A stretch of 50,731 nucleotides of DNA from Candidatus Baltobacteraceae bacterium (GTDB lineage Bacteria; Vulcanimicrobiota; Vulcanimicrobiia; Vulcanimicrobiales; Vulcanimicrobiaceae). Positions within the stretch are counted from its first letter, which is position 1; each line of letters begins with the position of its first letter. Positions 6,647-44,652 of the stretch are shown here, one piece after another. The stretch spans positions 1 through 50,731 of the forward strand of contig DATBTN010000049.1 in the NCBI GenBank assembly GCA_036559195.1, written 5' to 3'. The position numbers were made by a program, and so were the translations under genes. Under the pieces are notes generated by a model. That model was given only the letters and a program-made list of their open reading frames with translations. It made no database searches and was not told where the DNA came from.

Positions 6647-8236
6647 GTGACGAGCCGCTTCGTACGTGCCCTTCCGGCGATCCTCGCCGCCCTGCTCGCG
6701 ACGTCGAACGCGACGGCGTTTGCCGCAACCGCGCCGTCGCCGCTCGCCCGGCGCGTCGCGCAGATCGTCGGCCGGCCGGAGCTGCGCCACACGCAGATCG
6801 GCGTCGCGTTCTACGATCTCGATTCCAAGCGGCTCGTCTACGGATTGAACGAGCGCAAGTATTTTCTGGCGGCGTCGACGACCAAGACGCTGACGGAAGG
6901 CACGGCGCTCGCGCTTTTGGGAGGCGATTTCCGATTTACGACGCCCGTGTACCGCACCGGTCCGATCGGCGCCGACGGCACGCTCGACGGCGATCTGGTC
7001 CTCAAAGCCGGCGGCGATCCGGATCTTTCGAATCGGATCGAGCCGAACGCAACGCTAGCCTTCGAAAACGAGGATCACTCGTACGACGGGTCGCCCGACA
7101 CGAAGGCCGTTCCCGGCGATCCGCTGCAGGTGCTGCGCGAGTTGGCGCGAGCGATCGCGGCGAAAGGTATCAAACGCGTCAGCGGCCGGGTCGTCGTCGA
7201 CTCGACGCTTTTTCCGGAGGGCGCGCACGAAGCCGGCACCGGCGTGGTCGTCTCACCGATCGTCGTCAACGATAACATCGTCGACGTGACCGTAACGCCC
7301 GGCGCGAAGGCCGGCGATCCGGTCTCGATCGCGGTTTCCCCGCAGACGGCGTACGTGCGGTTCGTGAATCGAGCGACGACCGCGGCCGCCGGCAGCGATC
7401 GCACGATCGACCTGAGCGACGACGTTGCCGATGCAAACGGCGAGCGAACCGTGACGATCGCGGGCACCCTGCCGCAAGCGTCGCCGAGCATTCTCTATGC
7501 GTACGACGTGCCGTCGCCGCGCCGATTCGCGGAAGTGGCCCTGACCGAGGCGCTGCAGGATGCGGGCGTCGCGATCGCCATGCCCGGTGCCGACGCTCCC
7601 GCCGACGCATCGAAACTGGCCGCGTTTTATACCGACGCAAATGTGGTTGCGGTGCATACGTCGCCGCCGCTACGCGAGGACGTACGGATCACGCTCAAGG
7701 TGAGCGACAACCTACATGCGGATCTCATGCCATACGTGTGGGCCGTCTACAAAGCGCACGCGAGTGCGAACTATCTGCGCACCGCCTTTGCGATGGAGAA
7801 GGCGTTCCTGCGCGGCGGCGGCCTCGATCCGCAGGATTTCATTCAAAACGACGGTCTCGGAACCAACGCGTTCTATCAACCGGCGGTGATGGTGCGATAT
7901 CTTGAGTTTCTGCGCGCGCAGCCGTTCTTCGCGGACTTTTACGACGGCTTACCGATCCTCGGCGTCGACGGCACGCTGTTCAACATTCAAAACGGCACGC
8001 CCGGGGCGGGCAAGGTGCACGCCAAGACCGGCACGTGGGGCGCCGGCGATCGCTTGAACGATCGCAGCGTCATTACGTCCAAAGGACTGGCGGGCTATAT
8101 GACGACCGCCGGCGGGCGCCATCTCGCGTTCGCGCTCTATCTCAATAACTTGCCGGTCGAGCACGGAAAGGATGCGGCGCGCACCGCCGGTCAAGTGCTC
8201 GGCGAACTTGCGAACGCCGCGTACTCGAACCTCTAG
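6647..8236 (+). CDS. dacB: D-alanyl-D-alanine carboxypeptidase/endopeptidase, PBP4 type (peptidase S13)
   Basis: The 529-residue protein starts at a GTG one base after the trpS stop and opens with a signal peptide (hydrophobic core about residues 8-26, ending near TAFA). The three penicillin-binding motifs appear in order: S-T-T-K within AASTTKTLTEG, S-D-N within KVSDNLHAD, and KTG within HAKTGTWG. The long stretch between the first two is the insertion typical of the S13 family. It should act in the periplasm on peptidoglycan side chains and cross-links. Its stop codon overlaps that of the convergent aminotransferase gene. Confidence 0.9.
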   Translation: MTSRFVRALPAILAALLATSNATAFAATAPSPLARRVAQIVGRPELRHTQIGVAFYDLDSKRLVYGLNERKYFLAASTTKTLTEGTALALLGGDFRFTTPVYRTGPIGADGTLDGDLVLKAGGDPDLSNRIEPNATLAFENEDHSYDGSPDTKAVPGDPLQVLRELARAIAAKGIKRVSGRVVVDSTLFPEGAHEAGTGVVVSPIVVNDNIVDVTVTPGAKAGDPVSIAVSPQTAYVRFVNRATTAAAGSDRTIDLSDDVADANGERTVTIAGTLPQASPSILYAYDVPSPRRFAEVALTEALQDAGVAIAMPGADAPADASKLAAFYTDANVVAVHTSPPLREDVRITLKVSDNLHADLMPYVWAVYKAHASANYLRTAFAMEKAFLRGGGLDPQDFIQNDGLGTNAFYQPAVMVRYLEFLRAQPFFADFYDGLPILGVDGTLFNIQNGTPGAGKVHAKTGTWGAGDRLNDRSVITSKGLAGYMTTAGGRHLAFALYLNNLPVEHGKDAARTAGQVLGELANAAYSNL

Positions 8237-9423
8237 CCGCGAAACTTCGGGATCGTTTTAGCCATGCTCTCGAGCGCGTAGTCGATGTCTTCGAGCGACG
8301 CCGCGTACGAGAAGCGAAGGTAGCCTTGACCGGCCGCGCCGAACGCCGAGCCGCCCAAACACGCGACGCCGCCTTCGGTAAGGAAGAAGGCCGCGAGCGC
8401 TTTATCGTCGTGCGTGATCTTCGTGATATTGGGAAACGCGTAGAACGCGCCCTCGGGCATCGTGCACGAAACGCCGGGGATCGCGTTCAATCCGTTGACC
8501 AGACGATCGCGGCGCTGCCGGAATATCTCGTTCATCTCTTTGACCGCCGCGTCGGGGCCCTGCAGTGCCGCGATGCCCGCAACCTGCACGAACGTCGTCA
8601 CGCACGAGAACGTATTATTGTTGAAGAGCGTCACGTGCTTGGCGAGAGATTCGGGCATGATCGCGTAACCCAAACGCCAGCCCGTCATCGCGTAGGCTTT
8701 TGAAAAGCCGTCGACGATGATCGTGCGCTCCGCCATTCCCGGGATCGTAACGATCGAATCGAACTTCGAATCGAGATAGAAATTGCGGCTGTAGATTTCG
8801 TCGGCGATCACCCAGAAGTCGTACTTCTGCGCGAGCTGCGCGATGCGCTCGAGATCCGAGCGCGTCAATACGCCGCCGGTCGGATTGTGCGGCGAATTGA
8901 TCATGATCGCTTTGGTCTTGTTCGAAACGCGGCGCTCGAGTTCGTCGAGATCCATGCGCCAGTTCTTGGATTCGTGCAGCGGAATCGCGATTGGATTCGC
9001 TTCGAGATAGCTCGAGCACGATGCGTACGCCGGGTACGCCGGATCGAAGTACACGAAATCGTCGCCCGGATCGAGAATCGCGGAGAGAATGTTCCAAATG
9101 ATCGGCTTCGCGCCCGGTGAGACGACGACGTTTTCGCGCGCGAACGGCATGCCGCGGAAGTCGCCGGCGTAGGCCGCGATCGCGTCGCGCAGTTCGGGGA
9201 TACCGGCCGATGGCGAATAGTGCGTGTAGTTATCGCGGATCGCTTGGATGCCGGCTTCCTTAATGTGCGCGGGAGTATCGAAGTCGGGCTCGCCGATCTC
9301 CATGTGGACGACCCGCTTGCCTTGCGCTTCGAGAGCGCGGGCGCGAGCGAGGACTTCGAATGCGCTCTCGCTTCCGAGGCGCGAGAGAGCGGCGCAAAAG
9401 CGATCGGCGTTGGATGCGATCAT
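8233..9423 (-). CDS. Class I/II PLP-dependent aminotransferase (aspartate aminotransferase-like)
   Basis: The 396-residue protein begins with ATG at 9423, preceded by GAAAGG at good spacing. Fold-type I aminotransferase marks are visible: HMEIGEPDFDTP (substrate region), NSPHNPTGGVL, WVIADEIYSRNF with the Asp that contacts the pyridine ring, the Schiff-base lysine in VDGFSKAYAMTGWRLGY, and a late LRFSYA with the Arg that binds the substrate carboxylate. It transfers amino groups to 2-oxo acids; aspartate is the likeliest donor, but specificity cannot be fixed from sequence. It is divergent from the repeat-protein gene at 9517 and convergent with dacB. Confidence 0.88.
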   Translation of the reverse strand: MIASNADRFCAALSRLGSESAFEVLARARALEAQGKRVVHMEIGEPDFDTPAHIKEAGIQAIRDNYTHYSPSAGIPELRDAIAAYAGDFRGMPFARENVVVSPGAKPIIWNILSAILDPGDDFVYFDPAYPAYASCSSYLEANPIAIPLHESKNWRMDLDELERRVSNKTKAIMINSPHNPTGGVLTRSDLERIAQLAQKYDFWVIADEIYSRNFYLDSKFDSIVTIPGMAERTIIVDGFSKAYAMTGWRLGYAIMPESLAKHVTLFNNNTFSCVTTFVQVAGIAALQGPDAAVKEMNEIFRQRRDRLVNGLNAIPGVSCTMPEGAFYAFPNITKITHDDKALAAFFLTEGGVACLGGSAFGAAGQGYLRFSYAASLEDIDYALESMAKTIPKFRG

Positions 9424-9516: not shown

Positions 9517-12500
9517 ATGCGCACCTTGACCGAAGTCTTCGCGCCGGGAGCACCGACACTGCCTGAGGGCCTCCGAACGCTCGTCGTTTCGCCCGAGCGG
9601 GAGTTGGAACCTGGGATGACCGTGCGCGCGTCCTTTACGTTTCGCAACCAGGGAGGGGCGCCCGCGACCGGCGTTCGCGTGCGCTTTAGCGTGCCCGACG
9701 GCCTCGTGTATCTGGTCGGCACGGGTCAGCTCGACGGCCACGAACTCGACGACGAGCAGGGGAACTCGCCCTTGCTTGCCCGCGGCGGCGCGCATATCGG
9801 CGACGTTGCGCCCGGGGAAGAACGCTGCCTGGAGATTTCGTACAGCGTCGCCGGCGCGATCGAAAACGGCTCGACCGTCGAGATTCAGGCGGCGGTTGCG
9901 GCCTTCGAACTGCAGCCGGTCGGCTCGAATATCGTACGGCTCGTCGCCCGCAGCAAACCGTCGCTCGAAAGTCCGCTCACGGTCGTCGCGATCGAGGGCC
10001 GCCCCGAACCCAATCCGGGTAGCGAGGCAACCGTAACCGTGCGCGTGCACAACGCCGGCGAGTCGAGCGCGCACGACGTGGTCGTCGTGGCGCCGATTCC
10101 GGAGCACGCGACGTACGTTTCAAACTCCGCCCGCGTGAACGGCCGCGAGATCGAGCGCGATTTGGGCGCGAGTTTCGAGCGCGCGCACGCGCCGGTCATC
10201 GTCAAGAACTTACCCGCCAGCGCCACCGCGACGCTGACCTATCGCATCCGCATCGACGAGCCGCTTCGCAGCGGCGTTGGAATCGTGGCCGCGGCTCGGG
10301 TCGCGTCGCAAGAAACGCCCGCGTTCGCACTCGAGCCGGCTTCGCTCGTCGTCGTGGCGTCGCCCGATTTTGACGACGACCGGACGACGTGTACGATCGA
10401 ACCGGCGCACGACGTCGCGCCCGGCACGCGCGTCGCGATGCGGGTCCGCGCGCTCAACGCGGGCACCGCGGCCGCCGAAAGCGTCACCGTTGCAATCGCG
10501 CTGCCGGAGGGTCTCGTTCCGGTTCGCGGCGCTGCGCGCGTCGAGGGGCGGCCGCTGCGCGATCGCAAAAAGGAAACGCTTCATTACGATTTGGGTCGCG
10601 TGGAGGCGCGCGCGAGCGCCGAACTGCTCGTCGAGGCGACCGTCGTTTCGCCGCTGCCCAATGGAACGCAGCTACCGGTCGCGGCGACCCTAGCGTGGCA
10701 ACCCTCGTCGGGTTCGGGGGCGGGAGAGCGCCGTTTCGAACGCGCGGTCGGCATCCGCTCCGAACCATTTCTAACGCCGCGGCGCAACGCGATCGAACGC
10801 GCGAACGGCGCCGTCGTGCGCCCGGGAGAAGAATGCGAGGCGACGATCGCGCTCGCCAACGACGGCAGCGCGGCCGCAACCGACTCGGTGCTCCAACTGC
10901 GCGTCGATCCGGCGCTCGACGATCTGCGCGTTTTCGATAAGAACGGCAAGATCGCGTTCGACGGCGACAGCATCGAAATCGGCTCGATCGAACCGTACGG
11001 CACGCGGCGGTTCACCTTACGCGCGCGCGTGCGCTCGCCGTATGCCGATCGAACGGAAGTGCGTATCGGTGCGAGTCTGCACGCGCACGAACTCGGCGAG
11101 ACGCCGTTGGGCGAGGCCTCCTGGCGCATCGACTCCCATCCCGCGTTCGCGCCGGATTCCTCCACGCTCGGTTTAACTAACGACGACGTCTTTCGCCCGA
11201 ACCAGCTCGCGGAGGTGATCGTGCGCCTGCGCAACGACGGTACCGACGCGGCGCAAAACGTGCGCCTGCGGCTGTACGTTTCTCCCGAGGCTCGTCTCGA
11301 GTCGGTCGACGGCGCGACGCGCGAGAAGTCCACGCTGCTCTTTGGCGAGATCGCGCCCGGCGCCGTCGCCGAAGGGCGCTTGGGGCTGCGGCTGCTCCGT
11401 AGTCTCGCCAAAGAATATCCGGTAACGCTCGAAGGCGTGCTCACGGCCGATGCCATGCTGCCCGTGCAGCTGCATCGTCTTACGCTCGTCACCACCGCCG
11501 AACCCGACTTCTCCGTCGCCACGTTTCGCAGCGCGCCGGCGGACGTTGTGGAAGTCGGCGAAACGATCGACTACGTGCTGCACGTTCGTAACGGCGGCGA
11601 CGGCCCGGCGCGACGCGTGCAGATTCACATCGATGCGAGCGATGCGTTGATCTACGTTCCGAACAGCACGTCGGTTAACGACGTGCCCGTGCGCGACGTG
11701 GGCGCTTCGGCGGCGTTTTTCTCCGAGCGCGGCATCGTGCTCAACGACGTCGATCCGGGCGTCGAGGCGACGATCCGCTGGCGCGACGTGGTGCATAACG
11801 GGTTGCCCGCCGGCGTTTCGATCGCGCGCGTGGCGCACGTGCGCTACGACGGCGACCGCACCGACGACGTGAGTTCGAACGACGTGAACGTGCGGTCGGC
11901 ACCGGCGTTTGCCAACAACATCACCGGCTTGCCGTTCGGATTAGACGGTATGGTGGGCCCGTCGCTCGGTGGCCAGCGCGCCATCGCGGGAAGCGAATTT
12001 CTCGAATTGCCGCCGGCGACCCCGGTCAACGGAAACGGCGACCGAACCTATCGGCTCGAAGATCCCGAGCCGCAGTATCTGCCGCCGCCGCACGAAAACG
12101 GCCACGCGCACGATGAAGCGCCCGGTACGCCGCTGCAGCTTTCGCTGAGCGCGGAACGATTGGAAAAGACGCTGCGCTTCCTGGACGAGGCCCGTTTCGG
12201 CGGGCTCGTGAGTCATCTCTTTGCGATCCGCGCGTTTTTTCCCGACGCGATCGGCGAGTCGGGCGCCCCGGCCCTGCAACGCGAAACGCTGCGCGAGACG
12301 CTCGACCGGCTCTTCATTAAACTGCGGTTGCCGCACTACGCGATCGCGCCGCGCGATCTGGAGACGAGCGCGTCGCGAGCGACGCTCGAAGCCTTTCTCA
12401 CGACCGCGCGCCTGGCCGGCGGAACGCCGCCGGCAGCACTCCCGGGAGCTCGGATGTTTGCCGGATCCATCGCGCCGCAAACGATTGCGGAGCTTCGCGC

Positions 12501-12735
12501 CGGCCTGCACGACGCGCCCTTGGCTACCGCGCCGCCGTGGTTCGCGCTCGCGCACTTCATTCCGGCCGCTTCGCCGGAGCTGCACAACTATCGCAGCGTG
12601 CTGCTCGCATCGCTCGGCGATCTCGAGACGCACGACGTGGAGGCCTTCATCGACGCCCTCCAGCGCAAGCCGTATCCGGTGCTCGACGCGGCATTGGATG
12701 TCGTACGGGCGAGCCTAGCAACGATTCGAACCTGA
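9517..12735 (+). CDS. Large six-repeat Ig/CARDB-like (DUF11-like) protein, cassette copy 1
   Basis: The 1,072-residue product begins MRTLTEVFAPGAP. It has no signal peptide or membrane span I can see. Six beta-rich repeats each start with a PG-type turn, then an alternating strand ending in N-x-G and an xATxVxV strand: LEPGMTVRASFTFRNQGG, PNPGSEATVTVRVHNAGE, VAPGTRVAMRVRALNAGT, VRPGEECEATIALANDGS, FRPNQLAEVIVRLRNDGT and VEVGETIDYVLHVRNGGD. This is the pattern of CARDB/DUF11 adhesion-like domains. A Pro-rich linker (about residues 847-872) leads to a helical C-terminal domain from about residue 874. The next gene overlaps its stop (TGATG). The gene at 13233 is a paralogue with the same order. 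Role unknown; a structural or scaffold role is inference. Confidence 0.8.
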   Translation: MRTLTEVFAPGAPTLPEGLRTLVVSPERELEPGMTVRASFTFRNQGGAPATGVRVRFSVPDGLVYLVGTGQLDGHELDDEQGNSPLLARGGAHIGDVAPGEERCLEISYSVAGAIENGSTVEIQAAVAAFELQPVGSNIVRLVARSKPSLESPLTVVAIEGRPEPNPGSEATVTVRVHNAGESSAHDVVVVAPIPEHATYVSNSARVNGREIERDLGASFERAHAPVIVKNLPASATATLTYRIRIDEPLRSGVGIVAAARVASQETPAFALEPASLVVVASPDFDDDRTTCTIEPAHDVAPGTRVAMRVRALNAGTAAAESVTVAIALPEGLVPVRGAARVEGRPLRDRKKETLHYDLGRVEARASAELLVEATVVSPLPNGTQLPVAATLAWQPSSGSGAGERRFERAVGIRSEPFLTPRRNAIERANGAVVRPGEECEATIALANDGSAAATDSVLQLRVDPALDDLRVFDKNGKIAFDGDSIEIGSIEPYGTRRFTLRARVRSPYADRTEVRIGASLHAHELGETPLGEASWRIDSHPAFAPDSSTLGLTNDDVFRPNQLAEVIVRLRNDGTDAAQNVRLRLYVSPEARLESVDGATREKSTLLFGEIAPGAVAEGRLGLRLLRSLAKEYPVTLEGVLTADAMLPVQLHRLTLVTTAEPDFSVATFRSAPADVVEVGETIDYVLHVRNGGDGPARRVQIHIDASDALIYVPNSTSVNDVPVRDVGASAAFFSERGIVLNDVDPGVEATIRWRDVVHNGLPAGVSIARVAHVRYDGDRTDDVSSNDVNVRSAPAFANNITGLPFGLDGMVGPSLGGQRAIAGSEFLELPPATPVNGNGDRTYRLEDPEPQYLPPPHENGHAHDEAPGTPLQLSLSAERLEKTLRFLDEARFGGLVSHLFAIRAFFPDAIGESGAPALQRETLRETLDRLFIKLRLPHYAIAPRDLETSASRATLEAFLTTARLAGGTPPAALPGARMFAGSIAPQTIAELRAGLHDAPLATAPPWFALAHFIPAASPELHNYRSVLLASLGDLETHDVEAFIDALQRKPYPVLDAALDVVRASLATIRT

Positions 12736-13151
12736 TGGCGGCGCTGCTCTGGCTGCTCGTCGCGCTCTTCATTCTGGGCGCGGCGATCGGCGCATACGCT
12801 CTGCTCGCCCCGCGCCGGAGCGTGCCGGCACTCCCCGCGCCCGCGCCGGAGCCGGCTCCCGAACCCCTGCGGCTTTCGACTTCGGAGTGGACTAGCGAGG
12901 CCGGCCACGAATTCGCCGGCCTCTCGGAGTCGGCACGCTGCGACCTGATCTTTGCGGTAGCCGCGCTCGAGGACGAGCGCTCGCATCGGCTGCTCGCCCA
13001 CGCGCTCGACGATCCGGCCGATCCGGTGGCGCTCGCCGCGGCGCACGCGCTAGCCCGAAACGGGCACCGCGAGGACGTGGTCGATTACGCGCGTACGCAC
13101 CCGGGCGTTCGTGCCGATACTCTAGAGAGAACGCTCTCGCTGCTCGACTGA
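12735..13151 (+). CDS. Small membrane-anchored helical-repeat (HEAT-like) protein, cassette copy 1
   Basis: The ATG at 12735 shares a base with the stop of the preceding large gene (TGATG), so the two are probably co-translated. The 138-residue product opens with one membrane helix (LLWLLVALFILGAAIGAYALL), followed by a Pro/Ala/Glu linker (residues about 32-48). The C-terminal region is helical: residues about 68-85 (LSESARCDLIFAVAALED), then RLLAHALDDPADPVALAAAH, resembling two HEAT-type helix pairs. The anchor faces one side with the linker holding the helical part away from the membrane. It is a paralogue of the gene at 16487. Function unknown; anchoring the signal-less large partner is a reasonable guess. 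Confidence 0.72.
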   Translation: MAALLWLLVALFILGAAIGAYALLAPRRSVPALPAPAPEPAPEPLRLSTSEWTSEAGHEFAGLSESARCDLIFAVAALEDERSHRLLAHALDDPADPVALAAAHALARNGHREDVVDYARTHPGVRADTLERTLSLLD

Positions 13152-13232
13152 AGCGGCAGTAAGCCCCGCGGGCTGCAGGGAAAGAGTTTCCAAACGCTGC
13201 GCGACCGGCGGCGTCCTTTGAAAGGCTGGCTT

Positions 13233-16200
13233 GTGACCGCACCTCATCGCGCGCTGGGAAGCACGTTGACGGGAATCTTCGCACCGGGCTCGCCGGCTCT
13301 CTTTGAGAGCTTGCGGACGCTGGTCGTTACGCCACGGCGTAACGTGACGCCGGGCGAAACGATTCGCGTCGAATTTAGTTTTTCGAATCTCGGCGGCGCG
13401 TCGGCGACCGGCGTGCGGGTTCGTTTCGGTCTCCCGCCGGGCGTTTCGCACGTGCCGGGTACCGACGCGGTCGATGCCACGCCGCTGCCCGATGGGATGA
13501 CGCTGGTTGCGACGGAAGGTGCGGCGCTCGCCGATCTCGCTCCGAACGCGCAACGCACGGTCGCCTGCAGTTTCCGCGTCAACGAACCGGTTGAAGACGG
13601 CACCGAACTCGCGTTTCAGGCCGCGCTCGTTGCCGAGCAGGCGTCGCTCGTCGCGTCGAACATCGAACGGCTCGTCGTGCGCAGCGCGCCGGTCTTGCAG
13701 AACACGCAAACGCTCGTAACGATCGTGGCATCCGACCACGCGAAGCCGAGCGACACGATCGCCGTGCGCGCGACCATCGCCAACACGGGGCAGTCCAGCG
13801 CCACCGACGTGGTGGTGATTTTGCCGTTGCCGGAGTACACGACCTACGTGCCGCGCAGCGCGCGGGTCGCCGGGCGCGCGCTTTTGGGCGTGGAGTCCGA
13901 ACCCTTCGATTACGCGAGCGAAACGATCGTCGCGCAGCGCCTCACGCCCGGTCAGTCCGTCGTCGTCGAATATCAGGCGACCATCGACGCGCCGCTGCCC
14001 GACGGCACGCGGCTGCGCGTGGCCGGCGTCGTTGCCTCGCGCGAGGTCGTGGAGTTTCCGATTCAGTCGTCGGAGATACTCGTCAACTCCCCGGTCGATT
14101 TTGAAAACGACGAAACCAAACTGACGCTGCATTGCGACGACATGGTAACGCCCGGAATGCGGGTTCCGATGACGATGCGCGCGGTCAATACGGGGACCGG
14201 CGGCGCGCAGCAGGTCGCGATGAGTTTCGAATTGCCGCCGGGCCTGGTCTACACGCCGGGTTCGGCCCACGTTGACGGCCAGCCGGTGAGCGACGAGAGT
14301 TTCGCCGAGAACGTGTTTTCGCTGGGCTCGCTGCCCGCGGGCCGCGTCGTCGACGTCGGGTTGTCGGCAACCGTCGCGGTTCCTTCGAGCGACGACGTCG
14401 CGCTGCCGGTTTCGGCAACGCTGCGGTGGAAAGGTTCGGCGGGGGCGGCGGAGCGCCGATTCGCGCGCCGTCTCAGCGTGCGCGTCGCGCCGCGTTTCAC
14501 GCGTGCGCGCAACTACATCGACGTCGATCGCGGCGTGGTACGCGCGCGCGACGAAGTGCTCTTCACCGCGCACGTCTTTAACGACGGGACGGCCCCGGAG
14601 CGCAACGTTAGCCTGCGCTTGATACCGGGCGCATTCCTCGAAGACGTGCGTATCGCGCACGTTCCCGATGAGTCGCTGCCGTATCTCGAACCGGTCGCAC
14701 TGGGTTCGATCGCGCCGCATTCGGAGCGCGTCTTTGCCATCACGGCGCGCGTCGCATCGCCGGTTCCCGATCGCTCGCAAGCGACGCTCGGTGCGGTGCT
14801 GGAGTTTGAAGCCGGTGATTTCGATCTCGGCGTCGGCACCATTGTGGTGCGTTCGCGCCCGCAGTTAGAAGCCGAATCGTGCACCTGGGAGCTCGTCGGC
14901 GGCGCGGATCTGCGGCCCGGGCAGTCGCGCGACATCGTCATTCGTTTTACGAACGGCGGCTCCGACGTGCTTCGCGACGCGCGTATGGAGCTTACGATGC
15001 CGGCCGAACTCGCGCTCGAACGGGCGCAGAACGCGCGCCGAGAGCTGCGCTCGCTGCATTTTGGCGACATTCCCGCGAATACCACGCACGAAGCGCACCT
15101 TACGGTGCGTCTGCTGGGCGCGCCTAAACGCGAGCGAGTACTCGTGCTTGCGGGATCGCTCGCGGGGCGCGGCGTGAGTCCGGTGCAATTCCATGCGCTC
15201 GAGATTCCCGTCTTCGCGGAAGCAAAATTTACCGCCGGCGCCGAGCTGCGCAGCAACCCGGCCGATCTGGTCAACGCGGGCGAACGCGTTACCTATGAAT
15301 TGCGCCTTCACAACACGGGCGACGGACCGTCGGAGCAGCTTACGGTGCGAACGATTCCGTCGAACCTCGCGGTTTACGTTCCGGGCAGCACGGCGATTAA
15401 CGGGCTAAACGTCGCCGACGACCTGGGCGCCTCACAGCTCTGGTCGCAGCGCGGCCTCATGCTCACCGACGTCAATCCAAACTTCGAGCTGCGCATACGC
15501 TGGGAGATGATCGTCATGTCGCCGCTGGCGGCGGGCACCGCGGTCGAAACGCGCGTCGTCGTGGATTGGGACGACGCGAAATCGGTGGCGCTCTCCGCGC
15601 CGACGCTGCGCGTCGTCTCCTCACCCTCGCTCGAAGCGACCGCCGCCGGTACCCCGATCTCGATCGCGCAGATCTTTCCGCAGTTCGACCCGCCGGCGCA
15701 GGAGATGCTCGCGCCGGAGCCCGCGGCCGAAGCCGTTACCGGCGCGGCGGCCGCCGAGCCTCAAGCCGAACCGGCGCGCGCTCCCGAGCCGGGCGTTCCC
15801 GTGGAAGACGTGGCCCCGTCGCCGACGCTCTTCACCGATTTTTCGCAAGAGCAGCTCGCGGCGATGATCCGGACGCTTGAGAAGAGCGATGCCGGCGGAC
15901 TCATGCAGCACATTTTCGCCATCAAAAACTTCTTTCCGCACCGCGTCGGCGCCGCGAGTGCCGACGTTGAGGCCAACGCGCAGACGGCGGCGCGCACGAT
16001 GCGCGCGCCGCTCGATCGCCTTTTCGTACGCCTGCATCTTCCGCGCCTAACGGTAACCGCTAAGGATCTCGAGGATCGCGACAGCCGTTACGCCCTGCGC
16101 GCGCTCGTCGACGACGTGATCGCCCGCGCGCAACCCGGTGCCGTCGGCGAACGCGCGCGCGAAACCGTTCGGCTGAGCGGCTCGATCGACGTATCCGCGT

Positions 16201-16484
16201 TGCGCGCGCTGGTAGCGCCGCTCGAGACGGCGCCGTTGGGCGCGGTCGTGCCGTGGATTGCGTACGTTCGATTGCTCGGCGATTCGATCGAATCGGACTC
16301 CGGCCGCACGCACGCGCTGGGCTCGTACCGCGCGGAACTGCTGCGCGTCTTCTCGCTGCTCGAAACGCTGCCGATTCCGGAGTTTCATCGCGTGCTGACC
16401 TCGAGCGTCAATCGGTCGCTCGACGCATCGCTGCAGACGGTGGTCGAAGAGCTGCGCGGCGTGGCGCGCGTCGCGGTCGACTAG
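13233..16484 (+). CDS. Large six-repeat Ig/CARDB-like (DUF11-like) protein, cassette copy 2
   Basis: The 1,083-residue protein is a paralogue of the one at 9517. The N-termini align (IFAPGSPALFESLRTLVVTP against VFAPGAPTLPEGLRTLVVSP). The six repeats line up one to one, for example VTPGETIRVEFSFSNLGG and VNAGERVTYELRLHNTGD. An Ala/Pro/Glu linker (about residues 820-861) precedes the shared helical domain (GGLMQHIFAIKNFFP against GGLVSHLFAIRAFFP). GTG at 13233 is preferred because GAAAGG lies seven bases upstream; a TTG at 13218 is also in frame. No signal peptide is visible. It lies 81 bases after the small gene of copy 1. Role unknown. Confidence 0.8.
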   Translation: MTAPHRALGSTLTGIFAPGSPALFESLRTLVVTPRRNVTPGETIRVEFSFSNLGGASATGVRVRFGLPPGVSHVPGTDAVDATPLPDGMTLVATEGAALADLAPNAQRTVACSFRVNEPVEDGTELAFQAALVAEQASLVASNIERLVVRSAPVLQNTQTLVTIVASDHAKPSDTIAVRATIANTGQSSATDVVVILPLPEYTTYVPRSARVAGRALLGVESEPFDYASETIVAQRLTPGQSVVVEYQATIDAPLPDGTRLRVAGVVASREVVEFPIQSSEILVNSPVDFENDETKLTLHCDDMVTPGMRVPMTMRAVNTGTGGAQQVAMSFELPPGLVYTPGSAHVDGQPVSDESFAENVFSLGSLPAGRVVDVGLSATVAVPSSDDVALPVSATLRWKGSAGAAERRFARRLSVRVAPRFTRARNYIDVDRGVVRARDEVLFTAHVFNDGTAPERNVSLRLIPGAFLEDVRIAHVPDESLPYLEPVALGSIAPHSERVFAITARVASPVPDRSQATLGAVLEFEAGDFDLGVGTIVVRSRPQLEAESCTWELVGGADLRPGQSRDIVIRFTNGGSDVLRDARMELTMPAELALERAQNARRELRSLHFGDIPANTTHEAHLTVRLLGAPKRERVLVLAGSLAGRGVSPVQFHALEIPVFAEAKFTAGAELRSNPADLVNAGERVTYELRLHNTGDGPSEQLTVRTIPSNLAVYVPGSTAINGLNVADDLGASQLWSQRGLMLTDVNPNFELRIRWEMIVMSPLAAGTAVETRVVVDWDDAKSVALSAPTLRVVSSPSLEATAAGTPISIAQIFPQFDPPAQEMLAPEPAAEAVTGAAAAEPQAEPARAPEPGVPVEDVAPSPTLFTDFSQEQLAAMIRTLEKSDAGGLMQHIFAIKNFFPHRVGAASADVEANAQTAARTMRAPLDRLFVRLHLPRLTVTAKDLEDRDSRYALRALVDDVIARAQPGAVGERARETVRLSGSIDVSALRALVAPLETAPLGAVVPWIAYVRLLGDSIESDSGRTHALGSYRAELLRVFSLLETLPIPEFHRVLTSSVNRSLDASLQTVVEELRGVARVAVD

Positions 16485-16486
16485 CC

Positions 16487-16840
16487 CTGAGCCTCACCCT
16501 CGGCGTCGTCTTCCTGGTCGGCGTGCTGCTCTTCGGCATCGGCTCGTCGCTCGTGCGCTCGTCGAAAGTGCGGCCGGATGCGGCGCGCGAAACCGTTGCG
16601 CCCGCACCCGGCGCAACGAGCGGTGCGACGGCGTGGCCCGCACTCGTCGACGAATCGCTGACGAATCTGAGCCTCGCCGAGCGGCGCGAAATGATCGAGC
16701 GTTTGGCGCTGGTTGGAAACGATTGGAGTCGCGAGATCCTGCGCGCCGCAACCGCCGAAGAGACCGACGCCGGGCTGCGAGCCGCGCTCGAGCGCGCGTT
16801 CGCAGGCGCGCCCGAAACCCACCCTACAGTTTTTTCTTGA
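16487..16840 (+). CDS. Small membrane-anchored helical protein, cassette copy 2, apparently starting at CTG
   Basis: The frame encodes a membrane helix (LSLTLGVVFLVGVLLFGIG), a Pro/Ala/Thr-rich linker, then a helical segment (LSLAERREMIERLALVG...ILRAATAEETDAGLRAAL) matching the small protein at 12735 in layout and position. No ATG, GTG or TTG exists in this frame between the large gene's stop and the membrane helix. CTG at 16487, two bases after that stop, is the only plausible start and gives about 117 residues. The 3' end overlaps the convergent mrdA gene by 17 bases. Confidence is from the parallel with copy 1; the start codon is inferred. Confidence 0.62.
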   Translation: MSLTLGVVFLVGVLLFGIGSSLVRSSKVRPDAARETVAPAPGATSGATAWPALVDESLTNLSLAERREMIERLALVGNDWSREILRAATAEETDAGLRAALERAFAGAPETHPTVFS

Positions 16841-18680
16841 AGTACTTCAACAAGATACTCTGCGCGATCGGCGCGGCCACGCTCGCGCCGTAGCCGCCGG
16901 AACGGTCGACAAAAACGGCCATCGCGAACTTCGGCCGATCGGTCGGCGCCCAGCAGACGAACCACGTCGTGTTCGGTCCCGATCCGCCGGCCGTTTCTAC
17001 CGTGCCGGTCTTGCCGGAGTAATGTAATCCGGGGATCGCGAGGCCGTACGCCGTGCCGCCGGGATCGGTCACCTTCGCCATGCCTTGGCGAACGGCTTCG
17101 AAGGCTTGCGGCGTTGCCGGAACGTGTTTGAAAACCGACGGCGCGTAGCGCTTGACGACGTTCCCGTTCGCATCGCGAATCTGCCACACGATGCGCGGAT
17201 GATAGAGCGTGCCGCCATTGATGACGGTGGCGGCGACGTTGGCGATTTGGAGCGGCGTGGCTTGCATGGCGCCTTGGCCGATGCCGAGCGAGCACACGTC
17301 GGCGGGCTCCATCGGGACGCCGAAGGTCTTCATGCTCCACGCGTTGGTCGGCCAATTCCCGGCGTTCTCCCCGGGAAGATCGATTCCGGATTTCTGTGCG
17401 AGTCCGTATGCGAGCGCCCATTTGCGCAGACGCTTGTTGCCGAGCCGCCAGGCCATTTGGTAGAAATATCCGTCCGACGACGCGGCGAGTGCGTGAACGA
17501 ACGCGGTGTCCCCAAGCCCGCCCGAAGCGATGTCGCGCGCGATGTAGCCGCCGCAGTTCCAAGCGCCGGAATCGTAGACGATCTCGGTCGGCGTCACCAC
17601 GCCGTCGCTGATCGCGCCCGACCCGGTCACCATCTTGAACGTCGATCCGGTCGGCGTGGCGGCCGCGATCGCGTCGTCGAAGAGCGGTTGGGCGGGATCG
17701 GTGAGATAGGCCGAAATCTTCTTGTAGTTATCGCTTGCAAACGCGTTGGGGTCGAAGTTCGGGTAAGCGGCGAGCGCCAGAATCGCGCCGCTGTAGGGAT
17801 CGATCGCGATCGCCGCGCCCGAGAGTTTGCGGCCGTGCCCCCACGACTTGATCCCGTCCGCAAGCGCCTTGTCGGCGATCGACTGCAGGCGCCAATCGAT
17901 ACTCGTTACCAAACTGTCGCCGGGCACCGGCTGTTTCGCGGGCAGCTTGACGGCGGAAACCACCTGGCCTTGGGAATCGACGACGATCCGCTGTCCTCCG
18001 GGTTGCCCGCGCAAGTATTGGTCGTACGCAAACTCGAGCCCGTCCTTTCCCACCACGTCGTTCGGCGAGTATCCGCGGTGGCGCAACGTCTTGTATTCCT
18101 CCGCGGTGATCGCGCCCACGTAGCCGAAGAGATGCGAGGCCGTCGTGCCGTACGGATAGTTGCGAATCGGCTGCGCCTCGAGATCGACGCCCGGAAGATC
18201 GTTGAGCAACTCGGAGATGCGCGCGACTTTGGCCACGGAAAGATCGCTCGCCAAAATCACCGGCCCGTAGGGTTCGTAGGTCGCGACTTGCGCGAAGTCG
18301 GTGTAGTTGACGCCGTGATGATGCAGCAAGCGATGTTCGAGTTGCGCCGCAGGAATGCCGATCGTCTGCGCGAGCACGCGCAACTCGCTCGCGACGTCTT
18401 TGACCTCCGAGGGGATGAGCGCTACGACGAACGACGGGCGGCTACGCACCAGCACTTTGCCGTAGCGGCCGTAGATCAACCCGCGCGGAGCCGAAACGGG
18501 AATCAACCGCACTTGGTTGGCTTGCGCTTCGAGCCGGTACTCTTGCCCGTGAACGATCTGCACTTGGATCAGGCGAAACAGGAGCGCCCCGAGCGCGAAC
18601 ACGGTTACCGCGATAAAGGCCCCGATGCGTAACGGCGAGCGCTCCCACGGCGTCTTGCGGCGCTTGTAATACGGAATCAT
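16824..18680 (-). CDS. mrdA: Penicillin-binding protein 2, elongasome transpeptidase
   Basis: The 618-residue protein has a short basic N-terminus, one membrane helix (FIAVTVFALGALLFRLIQV), then the dimerisation domain (APRGLIYGRYG) and the transpeptidase domain. The catalytic serine is in TGSTFKMV (S-x-x-K), the second motif is SSDGYFYQ, and KTGT is in HYSGKTGTVE. PBP2 cross-links side-wall peptidoglycan with RodA under control of MreC. The ATG at 18680 overlaps the mreD stop (ATGA). It is the last gene of the run that begins at rpmA; no rodA follows within the window. Confidence 0.93.
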   Translation of the reverse strand: MIPYYKRRKTPWERSPLRIGAFIAVTVFALGALLFRLIQVQIVHGQEYRLEAQANQVRLIPVSAPRGLIYGRYGKVLVRSRPSFVVALIPSEVKDVASELRVLAQTIGIPAAQLEHRLLHHHGVNYTDFAQVATYEPYGPVILASDLSVAKVARISELLNDLPGVDLEAQPIRNYPYGTTASHLFGYVGAITAEEYKTLRHRGYSPNDVVGKDGLEFAYDQYLRGQPGGQRIVVDSQGQVVSAVKLPAKQPVPGDSLVTSIDWRLQSIADKALADGIKSWGHGRKLSGAAIAIDPYSGAILALAAYPNFDPNAFASDNYKKISAYLTDPAQPLFDDAIAAATPTGSTFKMVTGSGAISDGVVTPTEIVYDSGAWNCGGYIARDIASGGLGDTAFVHALAASSDGYFYQMAWRLGNKRLRKWALAYGLAQKSGIDLPGENAGNWPTNAWSMKTFGVPMEPADVCSLGIGQGAMQATPLQIANVAATVINGGTLYHPRIVWQIRDANGNVVKRYAPSVFKHVPATPQAFEAVRQGMAKVTDPGGTAYGLAIPGLHYSGKTGTVETAGGSGPNTTWFVCWAPTDRPKFAMAVFVDRSGGYGASVAAPIAQSILLKYFKKKL

Positions 18681-19201
18681 CGAGCCGAAAGCGTTTCGCG
18701 ATATCGCAGCGCGAGCATCACTACCGCCACAAAGACGGCGTTGAGCAGTGCCTGCCACAGGCTCTGGTGCAAGTGCAGCGCCGCATACCCGGGCGGATAG
18801 CCCTCGAGCGCCATCACGATCCAAAACAGCAGACTGCGAATCAGCGTCGCGATGGCAACGATCGCCGTCGCGAGCGGCATCGAGTCGGCGAAGAATCCGC
18901 GCGAGAGCATGCCCGCGAGTATCGCGGTGATCGTCGTCGAGATCGTCCACGCGGCGCCGGTCTGCGCCGCTAAAATATCCTCGCCGAGCCCGGCGAGCAG
19001 CCCGTAGACGGCGGCCCGCTTGGCATCCACCCGAATCGAATACCAGACCACGACGACCAGCACCAAGCTCACTTCGGCATCGCGGAAACGGAAGAAATGC
19101 ATCAACTCGACTTGGACGAGCAGCGCTACCGCGAGATAGATTCCCGCGCGCCACCAGACCGGACCCGTAAAGGGCGTCTCCTGCGGTTTACTTCGGGACA
19201 A
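18677..19201 (-). CDS. mreD: Rod shape-determining membrane protein MreD
   Basis: The protein is a multi-span membrane protein (about five hydrophobic helices, including AGIYLAVALLVQVELMHFF, and later IVAIATLIRSLLFWIVMAL), as expected of MreD. It lies between mreC and mrdA. The conserved membrane part starts just after the mreC stop, where no ATG or GTG exists in frame. TTG at 19201 (or 19207), inside the end of mreC, is chosen; neither has a good ribosome site. The choice gives 174 residues, normal for the family. The stop overlaps mrdA. Confidence 0.82.
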   Translation of the reverse strand: MSRSKPQETPFTGPVWWRAGIYLAVALLVQVELMHFFRFRDAEVSLVLVVVVWYSIRVDAKRAAVYGLLAGLGEDILAAQTGAAWTISTTITAILAGMLSRGFFADSMPLATAIVAIATLIRSLLFWIVMALEGYPPGYAALHLHQSLWQALLNAVFVAVVMLALRYRETLSAR

Positions 19202-20621: not shown

Positions 20622-21007
20622 TGGTAGTGCGTTCCCCCGACCTCGATGTAGCCGGCCGGGTGGCGAAAACGCGGATCGTGATGCGTCCAATGGATGACGC
20701 CGTCGTTACATTCGTATTGGCCCTGCAACGCGATCGGTTCGCCGGCGCGCAGTGGGATCGGCCCGGTTATATCCGCGTTGTCTTCCACGCGCAGTTCGAT
20801 GCCGTTGAGGCGTACGACGAACCCTTCGTGGCGCCCGCTGCGCGATTCACGCGTGCCGAGCACGCGAACGACGGTGCCGGAATCGCGCACTTCCACGTGT
20901 GCCGCGCCGCGCGAACACGCATCCATCGCCGCGCGTACGCCGGGTGCGCCGCCCCCGGAACAGCCGGCGAGCAACATCGCGATCGCCGCGGTGAGCATCT
21001 TACGCAT
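20618..21007 (-). CDS. Small lipoprotein, DUF3465-like
   Basis: The 129-residue product starts MRKMLTAAIAMLLAGCSGG, a clean lipoprotein signal with a LAGC lipobox, so it should be lipidated and held at the membrane. The mature part contains a beta-rich domain with VLGTRESRSGRHEGFVVRL, PIALQGQYECNDGVIHWTHH and a late GYIEVGG. The IHWTHHDP segment resembles the DUF3465 family, whose members are small periplasmic proteins without a known reaction. It overlaps nadD upstream by eight bases and maf downstream by four. Confidence 0.8.
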   Translation of the reverse strand: MRKMLTAAIAMLLAGCSGGGAPGVRAAMDACSRGAAHVEVRDSGTVVRVLGTRESRSGRHEGFVVRLNGIELRVEDNADITGPIPLRAGEPIALQGQYECNDGVIHWTHHDPRFRHPAGYIEVGGTHYQ

Positions 21008-21617
21008 CGTCGGCGGCCGCGATACCGTAGAGATGGTGGGCGGAGATGTATTGCCACACCGGCTCGGGGACGAGGTAGCGCACGGACTTTCCTTGCGCGA
21101 GCAGCGTGCGTATCAGCGTGGCGCTCTCGGGAATCTCCGGCAGGTTCAAGGCTTTGACGCGATCGCGCAGGCGCTGGGGCAAGACGGCGATGGCGCGGGA
21201 GACGGCTTCCATCGCGATTCCCGCGCGCGGCGCCACCACGAAGGCATCGAGCGCGTCGACGACTTCCTCAAAGCGCACCCACGCATTGCTCGCGAGCGAA
21301 TCCGCGCCGGTGATAAACGTCAGCGTCGCATCCGGGTACTTCAGCTTGAGCCGCGGCAGCAGATCGGCGGTGTAGCCGGTGGCGTCGTCGCGCAGATCGG
21401 TATCGTCGAGCGCGAAACGGCGATTGCTCGCGATCGCGCCGAGGATCATCGCGCAGCGGTGCGCGCTATTCGCCCGCGCGCCGTCGCGGTAGTGCGTGTG
21501 ATTCGTCGGAACGAACACTACCCGATCGAGCTCTTCGAGCCGGCGAGCGGATTCGGCAACGAACAGATGCGCGTTGTGGACCGGGTCGAACGTTCCGCCG
21601 AAGATTCCGAGTTTCAC
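21000..21617 (-). CDS. nadD: Nicotinate-nucleotide adenylyltransferase
   Basis: NadD makes deamido-NAD from nicotinate mononucleotide and ATP. The 205-residue protein begins with GTG at 21617, overlapping the obgE stop (GTGA). Seen are the nucleotidyltransferase motif GIFGGTFDPVHNAHL, FVPTNHTHYR, FITGADSLAS and the late LIRTLLAQGKSVRYLVPEPV. The second motif position reads H-N-A-H where H-x-G-H is commonest. rsfS, often next to nadD, is absent here. Confidence 0.9.
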   Translation of the reverse strand: MKLGIFGGTFDPVHNAHLFVAESARRLEELDRVVFVPTNHTHYRDGARANSAHRCAMILGAIASNRRFALDDTDLRDDATGYTADLLPRLKLKYPDATLTFITGADSLASNAWVRFEEVVDALDAFVVAPRAGIAMEAVSRAIAVLPQRLRDRVKALNLPEIPESATLIRTLLAQGKSVRYLVPEPVWQYISAHHLYGIAAADDA

Positions 21618-22876
21618 GAGTACGTGAACTCGAAGCCCCCGATGCGAACCGTGTCGCCCTCTTTCGCGCCCAGTTCGCGGAGTTTTTTGTCGACGCCCAT
21701 CTTCGCGAGAATTTGTTCGAAGCGCGCGAGACCCTCGTCGGCGTCGAAGTCGGTCATCGACGCCAAGCGTTCGACGCGTTCGCCGGCGATGACGAAGACG
21801 TCGTCGTCCTTGGCGATCGTAAACGGCTCGTTCGGTTTGAGCACGATGCGCGGCGCTTCCGGCACGACCACCTCGGGCAGGGGCGTCGCCGCAATCGTCT
21901 TCCACGCGGCGAAGAGCATCTCGCGCACGCCTTCGCCGGTGGCGGAGCTGACGCCGCGAATCTCGGGGAAGCTGGCGCGCAGTTCGCCGAGGCGCTCTTG
22001 CGCGTCGGGGAGATCGAGTTTACTCACGACCAGCAGCGCCGGCTTCTCGCCGAGTTTGGGATTCCAGGCGACGAGTTCGCGTTCGATGATCTCTTTGTCG
22101 TGCAGAATCTCGTCGAGCGGTTTGCCGCCGTCGAGCAGGTGCACGAGCACGCGCGTCCGTTCGATGTGACGCAAGAATTGGTCGCCGAGACCGGCGCCTT
22201 CATGCGCGCCTTCGATCAATCCGGGCACGTCGACCATAACGAACGACTCTTCCTCGGAGATACGCACGACGCCGAGCTGCGGCTCGAGGGTGGTAAAGGG
22301 ATAGTCGGCGATCTTCGGGCGGGCCGCGGAGACGACCGAGAGCAGCGTCGACTTGCCTGCGTTGGGCAGACCGATAACGCCGCAATCGGCGAGCAGGCGC
22401 AGCTCGAGACGCAGCGCGCAACGCTGCCCGGGCTCGCCCTTCTCGGCGAAGTGGGGCGCCTGGCGCTTGCTGGTGGCAAAATGCTGGTTGCCGAGGCCGC
22501 CGCGGCCGCCCTTGGCGACGACGACGCGTTCGCCGGCGGTCTTGAGGTCCACGAGAAAGGCTTCGGGCTGTTCGTCGAGCGTACGGTAGACGAGCGTGCC
22601 GACCGGAACGAAGATGACGAGATCCTCGCCGGCCTTGCCCGACTTGTTGGAGCCGCCGCCGGCTCTGCCGGCTTCGCCGGCGAACTGGCGCTTAAAGCGG
22701 AACTCGACCAGTGTGGAGAGCTCGGGGGTCGCCTCGAGATAGACGGTGCCGCCGTGCCCGCCGTCGCCGCCGGCCGGGCCGCCCTTGGGCACGTACTTCT
22801 CGCGCCGCCAGCCGACGATGCCGTCGCCGCCGCCGCCCGCCGCCACCGTGATTGTGGCCTCGTCGATAAATTGCAC
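21614..22876 (-). CDS. obgE: GTPase ObgE/CgtA
   Basis: Obg is an essential ribosome-assembly and stress GTPase. The 420-residue protein has the glycine-rich N-terminal Obg domain (VAAGGGGDGIVGWRREK, GGPAGGDGGHGG), the G domain with G1 GLPNAGKST, G3 DVPGLIEGAHEG and a VSKLDLPD guanine-specificity loop, and a C-terminal OCT domain (DDDVFVIAGERVERLASMTD). It starts at a GTG with AAGG five bases before it. It follows rpmA, the usual partner, after a 74-base gap holding a hairpin. Confidence 0.94.
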   Translation of the reverse strand: MQFIDEATITVAAGGGGDGIVGWRREKYVPKGGPAGGDGGHGGTVYLEATPELSTLVEFRFKRQFAGEAGRAGGGSNKSGKAGEDLVIFVPVGTLVYRTLDEQPEAFLVDLKTAGERVVVAKGGRGGLGNQHFATSKRQAPHFAEKGEPGQRCALRLELRLLADCGVIGLPNAGKSTLLSVVSAARPKIADYPFTTLEPQLGVVRISEEESFVMVDVPGLIEGAHEGAGLGDQFLRHIERTRVLVHLLDGGKPLDEILHDKEIIERELVAWNPKLGEKPALLVVSKLDLPDAQERLGELRASFPEIRGVSSATGEGVREMLFAAWKTIAATPLPEVVVPEAPRIVLKPNEPFTIAKDDDVFVIAGERVERLASMTDFDADEGLARFEQILAKMGVDKKLRELGAKEGDTVRIGGFEFTYS

Positions 22877-43443: not shown

Positions 43444-44652
43444 ATGCGCATCGCGTTTACCTGTAACGGGCCCGGGGAGATGGCGGGCTGGGCTCGGCCG
43501 TTGCTGCGGCGACTCTACGCGCTCGCGCCGCAGACCGAGGTGCATCTCTTCTTCGTTCCCGACGACTATGCCACGGGCAAAGAAGCCGATCTCGCGCGCG
43601 CGCTCTTTCCAAACGCGCACGTCTACGATCCGAAAACCTACGTGCGCGTCGCGCTCGGGCGCGGCGTTGCAGGCTTGCCCGCTGCCGTCGATGTGGTCCA
43701 ATATCTCGGCGGCGATCTCATGCACGTCGTTCGGCTGCACAAACGTCTGCGGGGGATCGCGACCGGCTACAAGTTCTCGCGCGCGAATCTCGCGCGTACG
43801 TTCGAACGGGTCTTCGCCGTCGACGATCGCAACGTCGAGCAGCTGCGCGCCTGGAATACTCCGCCCGAACGCATCCGCAAGATCGGAAATCTCGCCATCG
43901 ACGGCGCCCTGCTCGAAGCGCAGAACCCCGTCGAGGCCGGCGCTCCGCACGACGGCGTGCTCTTCATGCCGGGTTCGCGCCGGTACGAAGTCGAGCATCT
44001 GATCCCGTTTTTCTTTACAAGTGCCCTCTGGATGCGGCGCGACGATCCGGCGCTGCCGATCGCCTTCGGCATCTCGCCCTTCACCTCGCTCGACGCCGTT
44101 CGGCGCGCGATCGAAGCGGGCGGCCACGAGCGTATCTGGGCCCAGAAGGGGCGCCTGATCGAAGAAAACGGCGCCGCGTACCTGGCAAGCGTCGACGGCT
44201 CGCAGCGCTTTCCGATCCTGCGCAACGCGCTTTCGGCGACGACCGTCGCGCGGCTGGTCGTAACGATTCCGGGCACCAAGACGATCGAAGTTGCGAGTCT
44301 GGGCAAGCCGATGGTCACGATCACCCCGCTCAACGCTCCCGAAGAGATTACGATCAACGGGCCGCTCACCTATGTGAACCGGATTCCGCTTATCGGCGTG
44401 CCGCTCAAGCGGGCGATCGCGGTCGGCGTCAGCCGGCGATTCACCTATCACACGCAGCCGAATATCGACGCGCAAGCGATGCTCGTCGCCGAACTGCACG
44501 GCACGCTGACCCCGGGGCGTGTGGCGCGCGTCGCGCTCGAGCGGTTCGCCGACCGGGCCTGGCTCGCCGCCACCGCGAAGAGCTTGGGAACGTTATATAC
44601 CGAACACGTGGGCGCGGCCGATCGCATGGCCCGCGACTTGTTGGAGCTGTAA
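43444..44652 (+). CDS. LpxB-like (lipid-A-disaccharide synthase-related) protein
   Basis: The 402-residue protein has the two-domain GT-B layout: an N-terminal IAFTCNGPGEMAGWARPLL, which resembles the LpxB start (sugar and lipid side), and a C-terminal LVVTIPGTKTIEVASLGKPMV, which matches the nucleotide-sugar site of LpxB (S/P-G-T-x-T-x-E). The middle (GVLFMPGSRRYEVEHLIPFF) fits LpxB's SR-x-x-E motif. No catalytic assignment is proven; LpxB-related proteins that are not true LpxB exist. Its place in a heptose and glycosyltransferase locus supports an outer-membrane lipid or glycan role. Confidence 0.7.
   Translation: MRIAFTCNGPGEMAGWARPLLRRLYALAPQTEVHLFFVPDDYATGKEADLARALFPNAHVYDPKTYVRVALGRGVAGLPAAVDVVQYLGGDLMHVVRLHKRLRGIATGYKFSRANLARTFERVFAVDDRNVEQLRAWNTPPERIRKIGNLAIDGALLEAQNPVEAGAPHDGVLFMPGSRRYEVEHLIPFFFTSALWMRRDDPALPIAFGISPFTSLDAVRRAIEAGGHERIWAQKGRLIEENGAAYLASVDGSQRFPILRNALSATTVARLVVTIPGTKTIEVASLGKPMVTITPLNAPEEITINGPLTYVNRIPLIGVPLKRAIAVGVSRRFTYHTQPNIDAQAMLVAELHGTLTPGRVARVALERFADRAWLAATAKSLGTLYTEHVGAADRMARDLLEL

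Follow-up and report, generated by a model that had tools for sequence, protein, structure and literature searches.

A bacterial protein with Ig-like domains in series is generally taken for an exported adhesin or surface protein, and the DUF11 proteins known so far are mostly exported. The closest described systems for the locus studied here are the DUF11/CARDB surface proteins (PF01345, PF07705; TIGR01451), the HEAT_2/PBS-lyase-like HEAT proteins (PF13646), and the cell-division membrane tethers EzrA and ZipA, in which a single N-terminal membrane span is followed by a cytosolic domain (PMC6126333). In our locus, large proteins (L) belong by profile to the same Ig-like domain family as the DUF11/CARDB surface proteins, differing from them in having no signal peptide and no wall or membrane anchor, and in possessing a private C-terminal domain (CTD) and an obligate small membrane partner (S). 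The small proteins resemble ZipA and EzrA in their predicted arrangement, i.e., an N-terminal span and a cytosolic domain, by which those tethers hold a cytoplasmic assembly at the membrane, but differ in carrying a HEAT-like domain and in having a giant partner of their own; no homology is claimed, and Pfam scans of L and S returned no ZipA or EzrA match. HEAT_2 matches 23 of 32 S proteins at E <= 0.01 (best 3.5e-8); unlike other members of that family, however, S proteins are short, membrane-anchored and nearly always located beside a CTD gene. All component types are known, with the exception of the CTD, for which no described family was matched. Our searches of published papers found no description of the L-S pair, and an earlier interpretation made from the DNA letters (hereafter the sequence-only reading) had likewise recognised no described system of this kind. 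We interpret the pair as a two-protein, membrane-tethered cytoplasmic scaffold whose conserved N-terminal tip would bind a partner, a reading to which we assign a probability of about 0.58.

The window, which is the whole stretch of 50,731 nucleotides that was analysed, corresponds to contig 49 of an Eremiobacterota (WPS-2) genome of 2.48 Mb with 97% completeness, from a lineage of soil bacteria that has been little studied. Four genes lie on its plus strand, namely L1 (9517-12735, 1072 aa), S1 (12735-13151, 138 aa), L2 (13233-16484, 1083 aa) and S2 (about 16488-16840), arranged between an aminotransferase gene (8233-9423, minus strand, divergent from L1) and the PBP2 gene (16824-19154, minus strand, convergent with S2), with the MreC and MreD genes located beyond PBP2. 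The tandem cassette of a large and a small gene that had been proposed from the letters, including its coordinates and protein lengths, was confirmed. At the L1-S1 junction of the window, the S1 ATG overlaps the L1 stop codon (TGATG), and at most L1-S1 junctions the S start either overlaps the L stop (TGATG, ATGA, GTGA, TTGA) or is found within about 12 bases after it. For the L2-S2 junction, most relatives display a TTG start a few codons inside the 3' end of L2; at this site the window has TCG, its S2 frame is offset by one base from that of the relatives, and ATG, GTG and TTG are all absent in frame near the start (16470-16500). The S profile places S2 at 16493-16792 (E = 1.3e-16), and its start codon is uncertain, the CTG at 16488 being the nearest plausible one; an assembly or sequencing error may account for this oddity. 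RNA folding around the L2-S2 junction was no better than that of shuffles (z = 0.11), and the possibility of a structured element or frameshift signal there was rejected.

The AlphaFold2 model of L1, obtained from a 43-row alignment (mean pLDDT 82), displays six beta-sandwich domains, a disordered linker and a helical CTD, with a pTM of 0.38 for the full model that reflects flexible domain placement. These elements correspond to Ig domains 1-6 (residues 15-795; 9559-11901), a low-complexity linker (residues 796-867; 11902-12117; pLDDT <50) and the CTD (residues ~868-1072; 12118-12732), with an N-terminal peptide (residues 1-25, MRTLTEVFAPGAPTLPEGLRTLVVS; 9517-9591) of low model confidence. L2 is a paralogue with the same architecture, and its CTD (15813-16481) matches the CTD profile at E = 1.3e-72. 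Both proteins exceed the curated DUF11 (PF01345) cut-off of 24.6 bits, L1 with 119.5 bits (E = 1.2e-34) and L2 with 82.9 bits (E = 2.7e-23), and an NCBIfam scan returned only the DUF11 repeat model together with a sub-threshold serine-peptidase model over the Ig region. Each Ig domain of L1 pairs with the Ig domain of the same position in L2 (diagonal scores 130-267, against 26-128 off the diagonal and <=49 in shuffled controls), which indicates that the repeats follow the same order and that the whole protein was duplicated. Thus, the six beta repeats in common order, the low-complexity linker and the shared C-terminal domain described in the sequence-only reading were recovered in the model, the domain matrix and the L2 CTD match.

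Orthologues of L1 are found in most genomes of the window's family. Mean identity among them peaks at 88% in the N-terminal peptide, a candidate docking motif, and at 82% in Ig1, and amounts to 47% in the CTD. When the full L1 model was compared to known structures with Foldseek, the best matches were chains of the eukaryotic axoneme central apparatus (E down to 6e-27, TM-scores 0.11-0.16), integrins and mastigonemes also being in the list. The axonemal central apparatus includes cytoplasmic chains of Ig-like ASH domains; given the low TM-scores, the likeness would lie in the repeat type and not in shared descent, constituting at most an analogy.

Modelled alone from 57 CTDs, the CTD reached a pLDDT of 96 and a pTM of 0.92, and its two halves are alike in secondary-structure order and by profile alignment (E about 5e-5, in a single comparison). 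The domain showed no consistent match in Pfam and no relative below E = 0.4 among PDB sequences, and the best structural matches of its model were not significant either with Foldseek (E = 0.56) or with VIA-align (Z = 4.5), although a domain with no matching family or structure does not prove a new fold. A phylum-wide search located the CTD in just two families, the window's own and its sister, beyond which only weak Ig-type matches were obtained.

Regarding the small partners, S1 starts with a hydrophobic helix that no positive charge precedes; behind it lie an Arg-rich flank, a Pro/Ala linker and a HEAT-like domain. S2 likewise displays a membrane helix and a HEAT-like domain. The composition proposed previously, i.e., one membrane helix, a Pro/Ala linker and a helical repeat, can be stated further, the repeat being HEAT-like according to the HEAT_2 matches; S1 of the window scores 16.1 bits against that profile, with a curated cut-off of 27.7. 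Most of the 32 aligned S rows have no Arg or Lys ahead of the helix and one to five behind it, three rows of the charge table being N-terminally truncated, so that the helix is not visible in them. By the positive-inside rule, this charge pattern, the basis of our topology, predicts an outer N-terminus and an inner C-terminus, with the HEAT domain in the cytoplasm. Longer S proteins occur in the sister family, as well as in one genus of the family to which the window belongs; alignment with them suggests that S1 retains their first and last repeats and S2 the first only.

We then assessed whether CTD and S occur together by running both profiles on 99 genomes of the family, with cut-offs set on the listed matches (CTD E <= 1e-11, S E <= 1e-6). 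Both were present in 68 genomes and neither in 26, with CTD only in 4 and S only in 1 (Fisher p = 1.4e-18, a value that treats genomes as independent, which they are not). Most of the five mismatches can be explained by contig ends or by S genes that the search had missed: among the CTD-only genomes, the contig of G032 ends just after L, the match in G119 is a contig-end fragment, the S gene of G060 was recovered with a separate S profile, and G005 has a short membrane-HEAT ORF directly after the CTD gene, while the S-only match, in G073, is a fragment at a contig start. Large and small genes were hence not found apart in relatives, and the pairing suggested initially holds across the family. 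At the locus level, 119 CTDs were identified in the window's family and the sister family, 3 of them at contig ends, and 105 of the 116 evaluable ones have S just downstream on the same strand. The other 11 comprise eight CTD2 fused to S1, one inverted S2, a locus where L2 has lost S2 (L045) and a very divergent CTD (L065). The inverted S2 (L083, 7030-7356) lies on the strand opposite to the CTD2 gene, unlike in every other genome seen.

Several rearrangements bear on which part of the system is conserved. In one genus, S1 is fused in frame to CTD2, yielding a single membrane helix-HEAT-CTD2 protein in 10/10 genomes with the locus, probably as one evolutionary event; in another genus, L2 has no Ig domains and CTD2 is kept beside S2. 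Furthermore, divergent L3 proteins retain the CTD and a downstream S (S3). In three genomes with no L, a protein of ~360-395 aa resembles the CTD weakly (E 1e-8 to 2e-5), begins with a short N-terminal part of another kind and has no Pfam match; next downstream is a protein of 310-368 aa that includes a HEAT region similar to that of S, with a membrane helix clear in two of the three. These pairs (L200 864-3009, L201 743-2604, L202 4863-7026) belong to genera devoid of L1/L2. Given the fusion, the Ig loss and the divergent pairs, CTD and S can be read as the conserved core of the system, with an exchangeable N-terminal part, and would form a modular unit kept through ancient duplication, domain loss and gene fusion.

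The duplication itself is, as judged by sequence divergence, ancient and not recent. L1 and L2 share about 35% identity, and in the L tree the L2 proteins group together as a single clade (support 100/100), the L1-type proteins and the remaining L proteins being placed on both sides of a midpoint root (the true root is not known). L and S distances correlate beyond two neighbouring control genes, with partial r values of 0.49 for CTD-S and 0.73 for Ig-S. No CTD-specific coevolution with S was found: the CTD-S partial r drops to 0.03 once Ig is included.

With the integration of these findings, S would act as a bitopic inner-membrane anchor oriented N-out/C-in, with a flexible Pro/Ala linker leading to a cytoplasmic HEAT-like domain. 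L would be produced from the same transcript by coupled translation and would dock through its CTD onto the S HEAT domain, a contact that we infer from the fusion and the joint retention of both parts, the mirror-tree signal not being CTD-specific. The disordered linker and the six Ig domains would then constitute a long arm into the cytoplasm, at whose tip the N-terminal peptide and Ig1, the most conserved segments, may bind a partner. CTD-S would thus be the fixed anchor, and the exchangeable N-terminal part could consist of six Ig domains, of divergent or fewer Ig domains, of a short beta module, or of nothing. The earlier conjecture that the large protein may stay in the cytoplasm, tethered by the small one, is supported by directly computed features (protein anatomy, co-occurrence, translational coupling of the genes, fusion and absence of an export signal) and by the predicted S topology. 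A broader proposal, which we advance tentatively and hold at somewhat less than even odds, is that L-S represents a new class of bacterial intracellular scaffold, in which the S anchor and a CTD of an undescribed family display exchangeable modules at the inner membrane, facing the cytoplasm. The module would most often be a six-Ig arm, and the whole would serve as a cytoskeleton-like or organising system specific to the Eremiobacterota lineage. The cultivated Vulcanimicrobium alpinus WC8-2 possesses both L-S and a divergent L3-S3 pair, making localisation, binding and partner identity directly testable.

The cellular location of L is the point at which the main alternative arises, namely that L is exported to the envelope or surface by an unconventional route, with S, its HEAT domain outside, serving as export or retention partner. 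DUF11/CARDB/NEW3 domains are typical of exported proteins, and two other DUF11 proteins of the same genome carry N-terminal signal sequences. In contrast, none of the 43 L proteins examined has a signal peptide or membrane helix, in agreement with the absence of a signal peptide remarked on earlier for the window's two proteins; the highest 19-residue Kyte-Doolittle mean within their first 45 aa is 1.31, and in several of them upstream stops 2-13 codons from the L start leave no room for a signal peptide. Nor was any C-terminal membrane or wall anchor detected in these 43 proteins, whose maximum 19-residue hydropathy mean anywhere is 1.83 and which end in the soluble CTD; the DUF11 match is not accompanied by an export signal of the adhesin type. 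The composition of L is also nearer to that of cytoplasmic proteins, charged residues amounting to 22% against 13% and 21% in the two signal-peptide-bearing DUF11 proteins, and the S charge pattern places the HEAT domain inside. We consider export unlikely; the missing export signal together with the predicted S orientation favours a cytoplasmic L. An automatic annotation of L as a surface protein would be misleading, as the findings speak for a cytoplasmic protein held by a membrane anchor of its own.

An association with cell shape was also considered, since most genomes of the family that possess L have L-S located between the PBP2 and aminotransferase genes, beside MreC. Under this explanation, L-S would be a dedicated part of the elongation machinery (MreC/MreD/PBP2), controlling rod growth from the cytoplasmic side, with which the morphology of V. 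alpinus, whose cells are rods or filaments that reach 92 um in length (PMC9758169), would be compatible. Nevertheless, MreC is present in 96/99 family genomes, whereas L is missing from roughly a quarter of them. Among 18 inspected genomes with no L or with L elsewhere, 17 keep mreC, PBP2 and the aminotransferase gene together without L, and the contig of the other ends at PBP2; in two of these 18, V. alpinus and one further genome, L is found at a different locus, which in V. alpinus is near 2.04 Mb, with the PBP2 block near 3.44 Mb. L is likewise away from the mreC-PBP2-aminotransferase block at L057, L097 and L098, and in the sister family it is found beside the aminotransferase gene and not beside PBP2. 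Because the block remains intact without L and L occurs elsewhere in V. alpinus, the neighbourhood provides no argument for a role in rod shape; the link to the adjoining cell-shape genes that the sequence-only reading had tentatively suggested is unsupported, the adjacency looks positional, and we regard an elongation role as improbable. That the large and small genes are mere neighbours with separate functions, brought together by a gene order that is conserved anyway, is very improbable, considering that the association of CTD with S persists at other loci (V. alpinus, divergent L3-S3), after the loss of Ig domains, in the divergent pairs of genera devoid of L1/L2, and as a fused protein in one genus.

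Returning to L itself, short remnants in some genomes suggest that L has been lost there; these comprise the N-terminal 33-34 residues or a weak Ig fragment (G061:C176:5553-5654, G033:C27:2-100 and L197 2040-2219), and the G033 remnant may be an assembly duplicate. A defence function was discarded, as PADLOC returned no match. Elsewhere in the window, two ORFs (20694-22169, 491 aa; 43444-44652, 402 aa) have no Pfam match, the former lying opposite Maf/Obg genes and possibly being no gene. Genes resembling tig, clpP, clpX and priA, named by eye from their sequence starts, are located near the divergent L3-S3 pairs (L174 7753-10826 and L156 8257-10776) of V. alpinus and a relative. Off the main locus, G020 carries an additional gene resembling S, separated by about 4 kb from an Ig-type ORF of 729 aa (L204 5041-5571 and 9275-11461), and S-like matches similar to that of G020 are also present in G090 and G091.
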